From the NCBI RefSeq assembly GCF_022828365.1, contig NZ_JAJQJU010000001.1, positions 372,001 to 436,000 on the forward strand: a stretch of 64,000 nt of DNA, in the 5' to 3' direction. Position 1 is the first letter of the stretch. Each line of letters begins with the position of its first letter. The notes under the pieces were generated by a model. The model was not told the origin of the DNA and did not search any database. It worked only from the letters and a program-made list of their open reading frames with translations. Positions 5,747-55,750 of the stretch are shown in pieces. The stretch is from Candidatus Nanosynbacter sp. TM7-087 (GTDB taxonomy: Bacteria > Patescibacteriota > Saccharimonadia > Saccharimonadales > Saccharimonadaceae). The translations under genes and the position numbers were made by a program.

Positions 5747-6196
5747 GTGAAGGATTCAAATTCACAAGAATTGTTTACTATTCACAGTGTACTGCTGGAG
5801 AGTTCTCGAGTAGTTCTGGAGCGTCGTCTTGGCAAGTATATGCTGCGAAACATGGAGTTGCGAGAACGCCGTGATATCATTGACGATTTAGTAATTACCC
5901 TCTCTTCTGAAGTGTTGTCTACCAAGTTATGCGAGGATTCGTACGAAGTATCAGATGTTCAAACGTACCACTTCCCGAAAGGCCCGTGGCAACATTTCAA
6001 GCACAACTATATGCCTATGTGGTTTTGCGATATATTCCCCATAAAATACTCTGTAAAACGAATATATTTTCATAAAACCATTAAAATCACTCGTCGAGAG
6101 ACTTATCCAATGTGCAACATGGACGTAAGGAACAACCCGACACTTTGTGTCCAACTGGGCAAACCGGTTATTAAAGACGAGGTAAAAATTAGCTAA
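5747..6196 (+). CDS. Phage hypothetical protein, GTG start
   Basis: 149 residues, not recognised. It starts at GTG immediately after the previous stop codon. The N-terminal half is a charged helix; the C-terminal half has aromatic and cysteine residues (PMWFCDIFP, YPMCNMD) without a clear metal site. Function unknown. Confidence 0.5.
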   Translation: MKDSNSQELFTIHSVLLESSRVVLERRLGKYMLRNMELRERRDIIDDLVITLSSEVLSTKLCEDSYEVSDVQTYHFPKGPWQHFKHNYMPMWFCDIFPIKYSVKRIYFHKTIKITRRETYPMCNMDVRNNPTLCVQLGKPVIKDEVKIS

Positions 6197-10219: not shown

Positions 10220-10254
10220 GAATATGTAATAGCCACGAGCGGTAATGCCGCAGG

Positions 10255-10289
10255 AGGCTCACAGAGAAATCTGGGGGCCTTTTTATTTT
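10255..10289 (+). terminator. Terminator-like hairpin before portal gene
   Basis: A two-part stem (AGGCTC/GGGCCT, then CAGA/TCTG closed by GAAA) is followed by TTTTTATTTT. It lies about 30 bases downstream of the probable transcription start and 13 bases before the portal start codon, so transcription must read through it to express the head genes. Confidence 0.7.
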
Positions 10290-51477: not shown

Positions 51478-53991
51478 ATGACTAAAGTTCCACGCTTACT
51501 TGACACATTCACACCAAATCATTACAGCCTAACTCTCGATTTAACACGCGCCGAGGAAAAAGAATTTTCTGGCACAGTTATCATTTCTGGCGAGTCAACT
51601 GGCGAGTCAATTTCGCTACATTCCAAAGGCTTAACAATTCAATCAGCCACAATTGACAATCAGCCCGCCGACGTTTCATTTGGTGAGTTTGACGAATTGA
51701 GATTATTTCAACCTGAACTTAAAAGCGGCAACCACATAGTTTGTATCAATTTTTCCGGAACCATCACCGACGCAATGCACGGCTTGTATCCTTGTTACTT
51801 CACCCACGACGGCGTTAAAAAACAGCTTTTTGCAACTCAATTTGAATCGCATCACGCCCGCGAAGTTTTCCCTTGCGTTGACGAGCCAGCCGCCAAAGCT
51901 GAATATGATTTGACACTGGTCACCCGAACAGGAATAACAGTTTTGGGAAATATGCCCGTAAAAAGCGAAGAAGAAAATGGCGATTCACTCACAACAATGT
52001 TCGAGAAAACTCCACGAATGAGCAGTTATCTTTTGGCTTTTGTAATTGGCGAATTGCACAAAAAAACCGCACACACCAAATCTGGAGTTGAGGTCAACGT
52101 CTGGGCGACTCCTGCTCAGAATGAAAATACATTAGATTTTGCGTTAGATATAGCCGCTCGTTCGATTGATTTTTATGATGAATATTTCGGCGTCAAATAT
52201 CCATTGCCAAAATCCGACCACGTAGCACTTCCTGACTTTTCGTCTGGTGCTATGGAAAACTGGGGTTTAATCACCTACCGAGAAAGTTGTTTACTGGCAG
52301 ACCCTGAGTTGACCCCAGAATCATCCAGGCGCTTCATTGCCACGGTTATCGCGCACGAACTTAGCCATCAATGGTTTGGCAATCTCGTTACCATGAACTG
52401 GTGGAATGATTTATGGCTCAATGAAAGCTTTGCCAATATGATGGAATACGTGGCGATTGATACGTTACACCCCGAATGGCGCATGTGGGAAGATTTTGCC
52501 ACGAATGAGGTAACGGCTGCACTCAGGCGCGACAGCTTGGACGGCGTTCAATCAGTACAAGCCGACGTCAATCATCCAGACGAAATCAGCACTTTGTTCG
52601 ACCCGGCAATTGTTTACGCCAAGGGTGGACGACTGCTAGTTATGATCAGGAAGCTTATTGGCGAAGAGGCATTTCGCGCTGGACTTAAATCATATTTTGA
52701 AAAATTCGCGTATAAAAACACTGTCGGAAATGATTTATGGCAAGAATTGGAATCAGCGAGCGGTCAGCCAATTGTCAACTTAATGAACGCTTGGATTTCC
52801 CAACCTGGCCTTCCTGTCGTATCAGTTTCAAACAGTCACGACGCGGCGATTTTAAGTCAGGAACGATTCTTCATCGGCGAACACCAACCATCCGACGCAT
52901 TATGGCCGATTCCATTATTCGCAAATCAGCCACTTGACGTAAAGGTTCTAAATCAAAAAGAAACCACCGTTTCTGTTGAAAAGCCATTACAATTAAATTG
53001 CGGCTTAAGCGCCCACTTCATCACCAAATATGACGAATCCACTCGCGAATATTTATTGAAAAACATTACAGAATTTCCAACCTTGGATAAGATTTGCATC
53101 TTACAAGATGCTACAATACTCGCCCGCGCTGGATTTGAAAACTCGGCGTCGCTACTTCCATTAGCATTGTCGCTAAAAACCGAAACCAACGAAAAAGTCT
53201 TCGGGATGGCGGCTGGTGCTTTGACGGAACTGCGAAAATTCGTCGATGATAATGACGCTGCCAGAGATTCATTAAAGAAAATTTCTGGAGAATTTGCGCG
53301 CGCCACATTTGAAGAGCTTGGCTGGGATGAAAAAGCTGGCGAATCGGATGACGACCGCGAGCGGCGCACTACGGCTTTGAGTTTTATGATATATAGCGAA
53401 GATAAAGAAGTTTTGAACGAGGCAAAAACGCGTTTTGACAATAATAAATTGGAAGACTTACCGACAGAAATTCGAGCTTTAATTATCAGTACAAACGTGA
53501 GGCATTTCGAGACGCCAGAGATGACTGAAAATCTCTTTACTGCATATAAGAACACGCCGTCAAATGACCTGCAGAATGATATTGCAATTGGACTAACTTC
53601 CACCAAAAACCCTAAAACAGCAGAAAAAATTCTTGCCAACATTAAAGATTCCAATATTATCCGCCCGCAAGACGCTAGCCGTTGGTTTGTATATTTGATT
53701 CGGACCAGAGAAAGCCGCCAGATTGCTTGGAATTGGCTGAAAGAAAACTGGGCATGGGTCGAAGAGAAATTTGGCGAAGATAAAAGTTACGACGATTTCA
53801 TTCGCTATGCCGCCACAGCGCTACTGACAACCAACGAACTTAACGACTTTCGACAATTCTTTGAACCGATAGAAAATATTCCAGCCCTCGCCAGGACAAT
53901 TAAATTAGGAATTACCGAAATATCAGCACGTGTCGAGTTGATTGAGCGAGATAAGGCGGACGTACTCTCTGCTTTGCAAACAGCACTGTGA
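51478..53991 (+). CDS. pepN: M1-family aminopeptidase N
   Basis: 837 residues. Removes N-terminal amino acids from peptides. Substrate-binding GAMENWG (about 255-261) and zinc site HELSHQWFGN (about 293-302) with the downstream NESFA glutamate. N-terminal beta domain and C-terminal helical ERAP-like domain are both present, so the enzyme is full length. No signal peptide. The ATG lies 6 bases after TATAAT, a leaderless arrangement. Confidence 0.93.
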   Translation: MTKVPRLLDTFTPNHYSLTLDLTRAEEKEFSGTVIISGESTGESISLHSKGLTIQSATIDNQPADVSFGEFDELRLFQPELKSGNHIVCINFSGTITDAMHGLYPCYFTHDGVKKQLFATQFESHHAREVFPCVDEPAAKAEYDLTLVTRTGITVLGNMPVKSEEENGDSLTTMFEKTPRMSSYLLAFVIGELHKKTAHTKSGVEVNVWATPAQNENTLDFALDIAARSIDFYDEYFGVKYPLPKSDHVALPDFSSGAMENWGLITYRESCLLADPELTPESSRRFIATVIAHELSHQWFGNLVTMNWWNDLWLNESFANMMEYVAIDTLHPEWRMWEDFATNEVTAALRRDSLDGVQSVQADVNHPDEISTLFDPAIVYAKGGRLLVMIRKLIGEEAFRAGLKSYFEKFAYKNTVGNDLWQELESASGQPIVNLMNAWISQPGLPVVSVSNSHDAAILSQERFFIGEHQPSDALWPIPLFANQPLDVKVLNQKETTVSVEKPLQLNCGLSAHFITKYDESTREYLLKNITEFPTLDKICILQDATILARAGFENSASLLPLALSLKTETNEKVFGMAAGALTELRKFVDDNDAARDSLKKISGEFARATFEELGWDEKAGESDDDRERRTTALSFMIYSEDKEVLNEAKTRFDNNKLEDLPTEIRALIISTNVRHFETPEMTENLFTAYKNTPSNDLQNDIAIGLTSTKNPKTAEKILANIKDSNIIRPQDASRWFVYLIRTRESRQIAWNWLKENWAWVEEKFGEDKSYDDFIRYAATALLTTNELNDFRQFFEPIENIPALARTIKLGITEISARVELIERDKADVLSALQTAL

Positions 53992-54021
53992 TATATTATG
54001 CCACATTTTTGACAAAATCCG

Positions 54022-54050
54022 TTGACATTTTATCCTATTGGTGATATAAA
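54022..54050 (+). promoter_or_regulatory. Consensus promoter of hammerhead-associated orphan
   Basis: A perfect TTGACA (54022) and TATAAA (54045) at 17 bases; start expected near 54057. It is unlike the leaderless promoters nearby in having a 195-base leader. Confidence 0.8.
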
Positions 54051-54056
54051 TAGAAG

Positions 54057-54251
54057 TGGCTTTTGTTGACAAGCCGAGTAAATCCTTGTCCGAAAGCGTA
54101 CTTTGACAAGTGAAGAGAATCTATAAGACGAAGGTGAGATTTTGCGGTATTCTAATAAGTACCTCAAAGCCTCATCTTCGATCTATGCCATCCGGGCGTT
54201 GATCAGTGCTTCCAGCACGGGCGTTCGCCCAGATGAGGAGAGAGTACTACA
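54057..54251 (+). ncRNA. Structured leader RNA of the 128-aa orphan
   Basis: Contains CTTGTC-CGAAAG with CTTT-GACAAG (54085-54110), CGAAGGTGAG with CTCATCTTCG (54129 and 54171), GTGC/GCAC (54207-54219) and GGGC/GCCC (54219-54230) stems. The segment 54104-54122 can instead pair with 54684-54701 beyond the ORF. No known riboswitch was recognised. Confidence 0.55.
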
Positions 54252-54638
54252 ATGCCGTTCATTACCGATGAAGTCAAGGCAAAGAGGGCTGCCGACATCA
54301 ATGATAGGAAGAAAACACTGAAGACGCTCAGGAGAAATGAAATCTCCCGTTTCCTCAAAGAGGGAATCCCCACACTGTGCGAGGAAGCCAGGAAAGCCGC
54401 AGTCGACGCATATTTGATGACGGGTAAGCTTCCGGACGAGATCTGTATCTATGATCATGATCGTCGAATCACCTCAGCAGTTGCGGGCAATCCTACGTGT
54501 CGCAAGGCGCTCCTTAAGAGGCTCCAGAGCCTCGAAGAGAAGATCCGTGACGTTGAATTCAGATACGTAGAATCCAACCCATGGGTAACTACTCCCGATC
54601 CTTGCGTTGTCGTCTACTTCTCCAACAACCAGGAGTAG
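54252..54638 (+). CDS. Orphan protein on ribozyme-bearing transcript (128 aa)
   Basis: Not recognised. Highly charged N-terminal helix (KAKRAADINDRKKTLKTLRRNE), then EEARKAAVDAYLMTGKLPDEICIYD, another helical stretch (KALLKRLQSLEEKIRDVEFRYVE) and a beta-like end (DPCVVVYFSNN). No membrane segment. Codons are markedly richer in G and C (CTC, GCC, AAG, AGG) than in neighbouring host genes, suggesting foreign origin or selection for RNA structure. GAGGAG ribosome site 11 bases upstream. Confidence 0.6.
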   Translation: MPFITDEVKAKRAADINDRKKTLKTLRRNEISRFLKEGIPTLCEEARKAAVDAYLMTGKLPDEICIYDHDRRITSAVAGNPTCRKALLKRLQSLEEKIRDVEFRYVESNPWVTTPDPCVVVYFSNNQE

Positions 54639-54701
54639 CAGGCAATAACCTCGCAAACATGGCGAGTCTGTAGACTCTCCGTCAGATTCTCTCACTTGTC
54701 A

Positions 54702-54758
54702 TGTTTGCTCCATAGATGTGTGTCTATGCTGATGAGTCGGAAACGACGAAAGCGAACA
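54702..54758 (+). ncRNA. Type III hammerhead ribozyme
   Basis: All parts of a hammerhead are present in order: stem III 5' strand TGTTTGC (54702-54708), cleavage triplet ending TC (cut predicted after C54710), stem I CATAGA/TCTATG with a 6-base loop (54711-54728), the invariant CTGATGA (54729-54735), stem II GTCG-GAAA-CGAC (54736-54747), invariant GAAA (54748-54751) and stem III 3' strand GCGAACA (54752-54758). A15.1-U16.1 pairing is preserved. Open stem III makes it type III. It lies 63 bases after the orphan ORF and ends 2 bases before the convergent rnhB stop. Self-cleavage would set the 3' end of the orphan transcript. Confidence 0.9.
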
Positions 54759-54760
54759 AT

Positions 54761-55750
54761 TTATTCCAACACCACACACTCTTCAACTACAGGCGGATTT
54801 CCATCAACAGAAATTGCCAGCATTTGCATATCACAGCCTTCATATTGCGCATTTTTGGCAATGAATATTTCAGCAGCAAAACGCATTTGTTGCTGTTTTT
54901 TATTTGTAATTGCCGCCAATCCATCGCCGAAATTGTCATTTTTCCGATATTTGACCTCTGTAAAATATAAAACATCGTCTTTTTTACTAACAATATCAAT
55001 TTCACAATACCGCGTCCGCCAATTCCGCTCTATAATCTCATGACCATCAGCCACCAACCAATCCGCCGCCGCTTGCTCACCTTTATCACCAATTTGACGC
55101 GTTGTGTCTTTTTGCTGGTTTTTAGATTTTCTATCGTCAGACGTATTCTGAGAATTCGCCCCAGTATTAGCATATTTAGCCAACGGCGCAAAACTTAGTC
55201 GATGTAGCGGAGTTACACCCAGATTATCAATAGCCGCTCGGTGCTTCGCTACGCCATAGCCAACGTGCGAAGAAAAATCATATCCTGGATAAATACTATC
55301 CTGCTTCGCCATGAATTTATCGCGAGCCACCTTAGCAATAATCGACGCCGCCGAAACGCTCGGAATCAGACCGTCGGCTTTCGCTATAATTGTTACATAC
55401 TTTTCTAGCGGTGTACCCGCCAAAAAATTGACCGTCCCATCGATAATAATCTCATCAAACGTCGAGCCACTTTTCTGACATTTCGCTTGGATTTCTTTAA
55501 CTGCACGCCGCGTCGCCAATTTAAGCGCCTCGCTCATTCCTATTTCATCCAGCTCCTCAGCAGAAACCCAGCCCAACGCCCAAGCCGACGCTTGCTCGCG
55601 AATTTCCTCATCGAGCAACTCACGGCGTTTTTTAGTCAATTTTTTACTATCATCAAGCCCTTCAATTTCAGCGCCGCCCAAAACCACCGCGCCAATCACT
55701 AACGGCCCAGCCCACGCGCCGCGCCCGACTTCATCAATTCCCAGAATCAC
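54761..55750 (-). CDS. rnhB: RNase HII fused to YraN-like nuclease
   Basis: 329 residues in one frame. Residues 1-190 are RNase HII (GIDEVGRGAWAGPLVIGAVVL, DSKKL, and IIDGTVNFL), which removes RNA from DNA. A hydrophilic linker (about 192-218, NTGANSQNTSDDRKSKNQQK) leads to a YraN/UPF0102 domain: GDKGEQAAADWLVADGHEIIERNWR, EIDIVSKKDDVLYFTEVKYR with the PD-(D/E)xK-type residues. The two genes are neighbours in many bacteria; fusion is unusual. Overlaps the next gene by 17 bases. Confidence 0.88.
   Translation of the reverse strand: MILGIDEVGRGAWAGPLVIGAVVLGGAEIEGLDDSKKLTKKRRELLDEEIREQASAWALGWVSAEELDEIGMSEALKLATRRAVKEIQAKCQKSGSTFDEIIIDGTVNFLAGTPLEKYVTIIAKADGLIPSVSAASIIAKVARDKFMAKQDSIYPGYDFSSHVGYGVAKHRAAIDNLGVTPLHRLSFAPLAKYANTGANSQNTSDDRKSKNQQKDTTRQIGDKGEQAAADWLVADGHEIIERNWRTRYCEIDIVSKKDDVLYFTEVKYRKNDNFGDGLAAITNKKQQQMRFAAEIFIAKNAQYEGCDMQMLAISVDGNPPVVEECVVLE

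Follow-up and report, generated by a model that had tools for sequence, protein, structure and literature searches.

The hammerhead ribozyme found between the pepN-like gene and rnhB of an oral Saccharibacterium is the last element of a larger unit, 54022–54758, within the window (the whole 64,000-nucleotide stretch of DNA that was analysed). A promoter-like site is followed by a 5' hairpin, a leader with a RAGATH-10 RNA, an ORF of 128 amino acids, a tail hairpin and finally the hammerhead. The sequence-only reading had confined the feature to 54702–54758; the ribozyme does lie there, but the feature as a whole is larger. On balance we favour reading this stretch as a self-contained one-gene unit on a reusable RNA frame, in which a hammerhead gated by the leader makes the 3' end of the mRNA. 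The parts and their order, the covariation of two stems (P1 and P2), the recurrence of the frame around unrelated ORFs and the presence of either a terminator-like hairpin or a hammerhead at one and the same site are evident from sequence comparison. But how would such a unit work? As the tail emerges, its arms b and c would fold together and block the hammerhead, since c extends into the 5' strand of stem III. An intact leader strand a would then reach c and displace b, so that P1 closes the mRNA 5' to 3' and stem III is freed. The freed hammerhead would fold and cut after 54710, leaving an mRNA with both ends held together. The same step may also decide between P2 and RAGATH-10 in the leader, and with this whether the ribosome-binding site is exposed or covered. 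Cleavage would thus take place in the cell, in this order of events, and would bear on the life and translation of the mRNA. More tentatively, such units could form a new class of RNA-defined cassettes of Saccharibacteria, in which leader and tail wrap interchangeable ORFs and the a/b/c switch lets the hammerhead fold only after 5'–3' pairing. If true, this would be a ribozyme-based completeness check coupling 3' end formation, closure of the mRNA ends and, via P2/RAGATH-10, ribosome-binding access.

Layout of the unit and its leader

The unit and its two flanks are made up as follows.

51478–53991, + strand: M1 family aminopeptidase (pepN-like), upstream flank (Pfam Peptidase_M1, 1.2e-86); the flank is kept in the relatives L001 and L002
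54022–54050, + strand: promoter-like sigma70-type site by sequence, TTGACA (54022–54027), 17-nt spacer, TATAAA (54045–54050)
54059–54097, + strand: hairpin at the expected RNA 5' end, GCUUUUG-UU-GACAAG / CUUGUC-CGAAAGC, -13.7 kcal/mol
54104–54122, + strand: leader strand a of the closing stem P1, pairing with 54684–54701 (covariation)
54129–54180, + strand: leader hairpin P2, 54129–54138 with 54171–54180 (R2 match, covariation)
54166–54245, + strand: RAGATH-10 RNA (Rfam RF03147, 77.7 bits, cut-off 41.2)
54252–54638, + strand: ORF (cargo) of 128 aa, first taken for an orphan (homologs, fold prediction)
54653–54666, + strand: tail strand b, the 5' side of a tail hairpin predicted to occlude the hammerhead (GCAAACATG with CATGTTTGC)
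54684–54701, + strand: strand c, which serves P1 as its 3' strand and also belongs to the 3' arm of the tail hairpin (pairing, covariation)
54702–54758, + strand: type III hammerhead ribozyme (core and stem check, Rfam)
54761–55750, − strand: RNase HII fused to UPF0102, convergent flank (Pfam RNase_HII 7.6e-36, UPF0102 6.6e-23)

The claim that the ORF and ribozyme follow a promoter with no terminator between them agrees with this layout: the two boxes are present at the spacing given, and a simple scan of the + strand from the ORF stop at 54638 to 54760 detected no intrinsic terminator (GC-rich hairpin plus U-run). A generic promoter scan missed the site, as it requires a T as the last base of the second box; across 10 aligned loci TTGA is conserved within the first box and a TA-rich sequence in the second. 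In the same number of loci the 5' hairpin was compared over 13 pairs, with a double change in two of them. The gap of 2 bases between the hammerhead and the convergent rnhB, whose minus-strand ORF ends at 54761, was also given correctly. A leader model, R2, matches the window at 54061–54183 with 69.9 bits, the window being among the 20 sequences from which R2 was built, and the frame is complete here: R2 leader, P1, ORF, and a hammerhead starting right after P1. A circular-RNA, retrozyme or viroid-like reading was considered and rejected, as the unit has a single ribozyme and the copied stretch includes the promoter.

RAGATH stands for RNA associated with genes associated with twister and hammerhead ribozymes, so the name itself implies a link with hammerheads. 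In the window the RF03147 match is full-length and lies directly before the ORF, and it accounts for only part of the leader; the 5' hairpin, P1, the tail hairpin and the ribozyme all fall outside it. The outer stem of RAGATH-10 (54170–54177 with 54231–54238) covers AGATGAGG at 54231–54238, the GAGG ribosome-binding stretch before the ATG at 54252. Since the strand 54170–54177 is common to P2 and to this outer stem, the two are mutually exclusive, and P1 might favour P2 and thereby open the start site. By eye, a CCUCA–UGAGG complementarity is kept in the leader of several distant loci. The RAGATH-10 model gives 29 bits, under its cut-off, on each of two other leaders (L130 and L134), and only one of the 392 genomes of the order exceeds that cut-off. 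One further place (L017/L185, G177 C9) carries RAGATH-10 above the cut-off together with a leader match, as the window does, and has no P1 partner within about 1.3 kb. In another genome of the genus, the 5' hairpin stands at the expected RNA start before a gene that is SPFH-like by eye (L036, 101–180).

The hammerhead, its copies and known relatives

A base-by-base check of the + strand gives the following parts.

54702–54708, + strand: stem III, 5' strand, TGTTTGC
54709–54710, + strand: U16.1 and C17
54711–54728, + strand: stem I hairpin
54729–54735, + strand: core CTGATGA
54736–54747, + strand: stem II, GTCG-GAAA-CGAC
54748–54751, + strand: core GAAA
54752–54758, + strand: stem III, 3' strand, GCGAACA

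The claim of a complete hammerhead is thus borne out in its core, its stems, the A15.1–U16.1 pair and the cleavage site. The CUGANGA and GAAA core, the NUH triplet (CUC), the stem order and the intact stems are those of RF00008 (Hammerhead_3), and the topology is that of type III, with stem III open and stems I and II closed by loops; cleavage is expected between 54710 and 54711. What sets the window apart from the family is the score, the embedding in a leader–tail frame and, possibly, gating by the leader. That Rfam would recognise the ribozyme as type III holds for the match itself (38.1 bits; E 1.6e-6 in 901 nt and 1.2e-4 in 64 kb) and not for the cut-off of 48.5, which is a curated threshold rather than a structural feature. 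Could the hammerhead then be an inactive relic, with the ORF expressed without it? The low score is what would point that way. The core and stems are intact, however, and 92 of 93 copies (the window and 92 others) parse into three stems, stems I and III showing changes that compensate each other, so that we regard a relic as very improbable. The sequence-only reading had made its claim hinge on core-keeping copies in related genomes, and among the 92 parsed copies the core is CUGANGA in 90 and CCGANGA in two. In stem III 92% of cells are paired, and re-dealing the partners lowers this to 43%, although the parse selects the best stems. No other Rfam ribozyme family matched in 53950–54850 at E<=5. 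Elsewhere in the window, at 10227–10289, a weak match to the BjrC68 sRNA (27.1 bits, cut-off 39, E 0.0068) is probably due to chance.

How widespread are these ribozymes? Of 392 genomes of the order, 63 carry type III matches at E<=1e-3, 117 in all and at most nine in any one genome, and 14 control genomes have none; only three of the 392 have a match above the cut-off of 48.5. Strict filters make the counts from the 392 genomes lower bounds. In a search of the genus at E<=0.01, hammerheads were found in three of nine genomes, and one control, Methanosarcina, matched under the cut-off. A type III hammerhead in a chromosome of the CPR (Saccharibacteria) is supported. Neighbourhoods were analysed for 92 of the 117 matches, with L007 treated apart and 24 omitted, each of at most 33.7 bits. 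A same-strand ORF of 90 or more amino acids ends within 260 nt upstream in 79 of the 92; reading the opposite strand gives 49 of 92, and of 3067 random intergenic points 43% are so placed.

Leaders were sought in three ways. A pattern for the leader core gives five copies in the genome G001 and four in G002, and the ORFs behind these nine loci differ, orthologous pairs excepted, in a comparison where some ORF calls are open to doubt (lengths of 36 and 59 aa, or a different frame). The model R1 gives six and five copies in the same genomes and matches in 13 of the 392. The model R2 matches in 50 genomes, 36 outside its training set and 14 from it, and leader and hammerhead occur together in 35. 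A same-strand leader match lies 150–1900 nt upstream of 28 of the 117 hammerheads, and none lies on the opposite strand within 1900 nt. Counted from the leaders, 29 of 94 matches (95 less one antisense shadow) pair with a hammerhead, 14 of the 29 being training sequences. In seven pairs the order is reversed, with the hammerhead upstream, as tandem units would give.

No leader match is in range upstream of the other 89 hammerheads, and in the genome G397 type III hammerheads lie shortly upstream of gene starts (L041, 20–74; L045, about 1501–1555), which would place them in a 5' UTR or make them the last element of a preceding unit; the leader–tail frame is therefore one of several hammerhead settings in the order. 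By eye, the genes that follow in G397 are radical-SAM-like and CYTH-like. Tandem hammerheads at 5951, 6600 and 7835 of L083 (G357 C13), each 53–69 nt past an ORF and with no leader-model match in the locus, are possibly a second setting, cutting a polycistronic RNA into single genes. L119 (G249 C4, 318400–326900) is an array of leader, ORF(s) and hammerhead in which some units seemingly hold two ORFs and a TTGACA box comes directly after a hammerhead. Two loci (L007 and L008) carry a hammerhead near-identical to that of the window after a membrane protein.

What is known of such arrangements? Bacterial hammerheads have been described, some of them clustered in a way that might trim transcripts to the length of a gene; one such cluster, a triple arrangement in A. 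tumefaciens, involves ardA and an unknown gene (Perreault et al. 2011, PMC3088659). Their functions are called unclear there, many lie near integrases grouped with prophages, and the passages on these clusters mention no leader–tail pairing (PMC3088659). Bacterial hammerheads and twisters are also reported as enriched near certain genes, most strongly those of Mu-like phages (PMC10085705). Among the titles and opening parts of abstracts listed from the open literature (which leaves subscription papers mostly outside), none describes the leader–tail frame; the open literature also yielded no match for a hammerhead ribozyme in Saccharibacteria, nor for RAGATH-10 by name. The glmS ribozyme and a group I ribozyme under a c-di-GMP riboswitch are mRNA ribozymes switched by another RNA fold. 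The window differs from both in that the control strand would be the mRNA's own leader, the ribozyme lies 3' and no ligand is implied. The ribozyme is thus of a known kind, and a frame with exchangeable cargo and a putatively leader-gated ribozyme looks undescribed as far as was searched. The role of bacterial hammerheads becomes testable in this setting, where they lie mostly 3' of ORFs and some have a covarying 5' partner and, at the same site, terminator-bearing sister loci. The units also offer a handle on RAGATH-10 and on an accessory gene pool of episymbionts, organisms in which little is known of how genes are regulated.

Closing stem, tail hairpin and a calculated gate

P2 comprises 22 pairs, 16 of them with double changes, and 90.8% of its cells are paired. 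Its covariation score is 0.578; shuffled alignments give 0.234 (none of 500 as good) and slid ones at most 0.214. P1 in the window has 18 bp, 54104–54122 with 54684–54701, and one bulged A. The duplex is calculated at -26.7 kcal/mol and the best of 200 shuffles at -19.7 (0/200 as good), the shuffles having been scanned at every fourth position and the real strand at every position. Over 32 distinct P1 stems, in which selected and fair loci are pooled, 58 double-change cells still pair, against a shuffled mean of 11.4 and a maximum of 20. Of 30 leader-model loci, a P1 partner with a score of 10 or more is present in 22, and 21 outscore every one of their 20 shuffles; shuffled searches reach 10 or more in 26 of 600 cases. 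Thirteen of the 30 are training sequences that had been chosen through their hammerhead or P1, which leaves 17 as a fair test: here 10 loci reach a score of 10 or more, and 10 outscore every shuffle. From the hammerhead side, 89 of the 92 were scanned and 37 of these beat all six shuffles. The stem is weak in L007 and L008. A second leader–tail pairing (for example UUAGGAAAAA with UUUUUCCUAA) occurs in 13 of 24 loci, where at most two of 50 shuffles are as long; the window has none. Base composition is all that the shuffles preserve in the P1 searches and in the tests of tail occlusion, of strand b, of the second leader–tail pairing and of folding.

What follows P1 is not always a ribozyme. 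In the 10 non-training loci with a P1 partner the unit ends by eye in a hammerhead in two, in a T-run in five (two of them near copies) and in neither in three. The frame can thus end in several ways, of which the hammerhead is one. In two others of the 17 fair loci a hammerhead comes after a weaker P1.

In the tail alignment strand c can also pair with another strand of the tail, b, and this b–c pairing continues into the 5' strand of stem III. In the window GCAAACATG at 54653–54661 pairs with CATGTTTGC at 54700–54708, giving an occlusion of 1.00, and none of 60 shuffles has as many paired bases. Calculated alone, 54640–54760 folds into the tail hairpin and forms no complete hammerhead, and with the leader joined to the tail the fold has P1, P2 and an intact hammerhead. 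The probability of stem III in the window is 0.97 for the hammerhead alone, 0.00 with the tail, 0.95 with its own leader and 0.00 with strand a shuffled; the corresponding means over 32 loci are 0.68, 0.16, 0.50 and 0.21. Stem III is blocked by the tail in 20 of these loci and restored by the own leader in 14 of the 20, by the shuffled one in four. For the whole transcript of the window, P1 reaches 0.93 and stem III 0.95, and both fall to 0.00 when strand a is shuffled. Occlusion by the tail and rescue by the leader are results of calculation, and the calculations disregard tertiary contacts of the hammerhead, co-transcriptional order and ribosomes.

The gate is not universal among hammerhead loci. 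Whole-transcript folding brings stem III above 0.5 in no more than 17 of 31 loci (five with strand a shuffled), and nine of the 31 have both P1 and stem III below 0.1 despite their leader. Over 91 hammerheads the stem III strand pairs upstream only slightly more than in shuffles (0.44 vs 0.37); in 33 of them the final 22 nt do better than 57 of 60 shuffles, so that occlusion is confined to a subset. A set of 40 P1 loci, selected as 30 kept by a 5'-strand pattern plus 10 pattern loci including the window, was used for strand b, which beats 95 of 100 shuffles in 22; the window fails by this ungapped test. In those 22 loci b–c holds 2.4 G.U pairs on average and a–c 0.18, b–c being the richer in 19 and equal in three, and a–c is the stronger duplex in 18. 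The P1 best-helix search prefers Watson–Crick pairs, which inflates this contrast, and several loci share one b sequence.

Is a gate needed at all? The hammerhead could be an ungated substitute for a terminator, by which every transcript is cut to a defined 3' end and P1 and the tail hairpin serve only to protect the ends, the tail hairpin forming after cleavage and preventing re-sealing of the cut; we hold this doubtful. It would sit well with the swap of hammerhead and terminator-like hairpin at the pepN–rnhB site, with the position of the hammerheads (a median of 102 nt past the ORF stop in the 86 of 92 with an ORF), with the promoter-like box directly after a hammerhead in L119 and with the hammerhead of L007, which folds with or without strand a. 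A b–c hairpin would also end two bases short of the new 3' end after cleavage. What ungated cutting leaves unexplained is the covariation of strand a with the strand adjacent to stem III, and the calculated rescue that depends on strand a.

Cargo proteins and exchange at the pepN–rnhB site

The 128-aa ORF had been called an orphan, and this stands as far as Pfam and PHROG are concerned, where nothing meaningful was matched (best E 0.048 and 0.13). Strict orphan status has to be rejected, as there are 59 homologs with 58–99% identity over the matched parts. No relative was met in 121 pattern stretches of GTDB contigs or in the 392 genomes of the order, and IMG/VR gave no protein match. An AlphaFold2 model (pLDDT 88) consists of a long helix and a small alpha/beta part, with a best E of 0.23 in a PDB search. 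By eye the homolog alignment (A1) is a mosaic in which blocks of the N-terminal third are swapped between sequences, and this suggests frequent recombination.

The pairing of the hammerhead with this one small gene, singled out originally, is not what makes the unit special, because the frame of leader and tail recurs around unrelated ORFs. Under the rule used, 86 of 92 hammerheads are preceded by an ORF and six are not. Only six pairs among the 86 cargo ORFs are related at E<=1e-5. Pfam detects 13 families among the 86, each in one or two members, including glycosyltransferases, TelA, SPFH, HIT, NUDIX and others, and 17 of 20 cargo proteins scanned singly had no Pfam match at E<=0.01. A prophage reading was rejected, as the 14 PHROG families matched are scattered, each in one or two of the 86 proteins.

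The closest named relative found, TM7 oral taxon 352 SAG3 (L001), has an RNase HII 96% identical to that of the window. L001 aligns with the window as far as 54109 and resumes at 54760, and a second relative, L002, aligns as far as 54132 and resumes at 54771; promoter, early leader and rnhB are kept at their pepN–rnhB sites, and their ORFs between (L009 and L010) have no match to the 128-aa ORF at E<=1e-3. Directly before rnhB both carry AGTCCCAACTGGGGCT-GTTTTTT, which the scan rates as terminator-like; since the scan yields 0.7–0.8 sites per shuffled region, the shared sequence is the better evidence. The hammerhead of the window thus occupies the place of a terminator-like hairpin in two near relatives, and this lends comparative support to the suggestion that it may replace a terminator.

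Are these units mobile? Leader and tail might be a homology, packaging or copying signal for the exchange of ORFs, with the ribozyme trimming the RNA, and we judge this improbable. It would account for the three different ORFs at the pepN–rnhB site, for cargo that is mostly unrelated between loci, for tandem units and for L011, where about 60 bp of a pepN-type promoter region stand at the site of L012. The promoter region of L011 resembles that of the pepN site in 56 of 60 bases over three blocks, followed by 7, 3 and 4 of 20, while downstream it matches the flank of L012 in 195 of 200 bases. Such a hybrid fits DNA-level recombination between units, promoter included. Against mobility of this kind, the copied stretch takes in untranscribed promoter DNA, which argues for DNA recombination, no recombinase or reverse transcriptase was noticed in the units inspected, non-systematically, and IMG/VR has no match to four exact patterns (leader, P1, hammerhead), which would miss divergent copies. 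Two further loci (L013 and L014) have a like leader and tail around different ORFs, and their units end beside tRNA genes, tRNA-Leu-like by eye.
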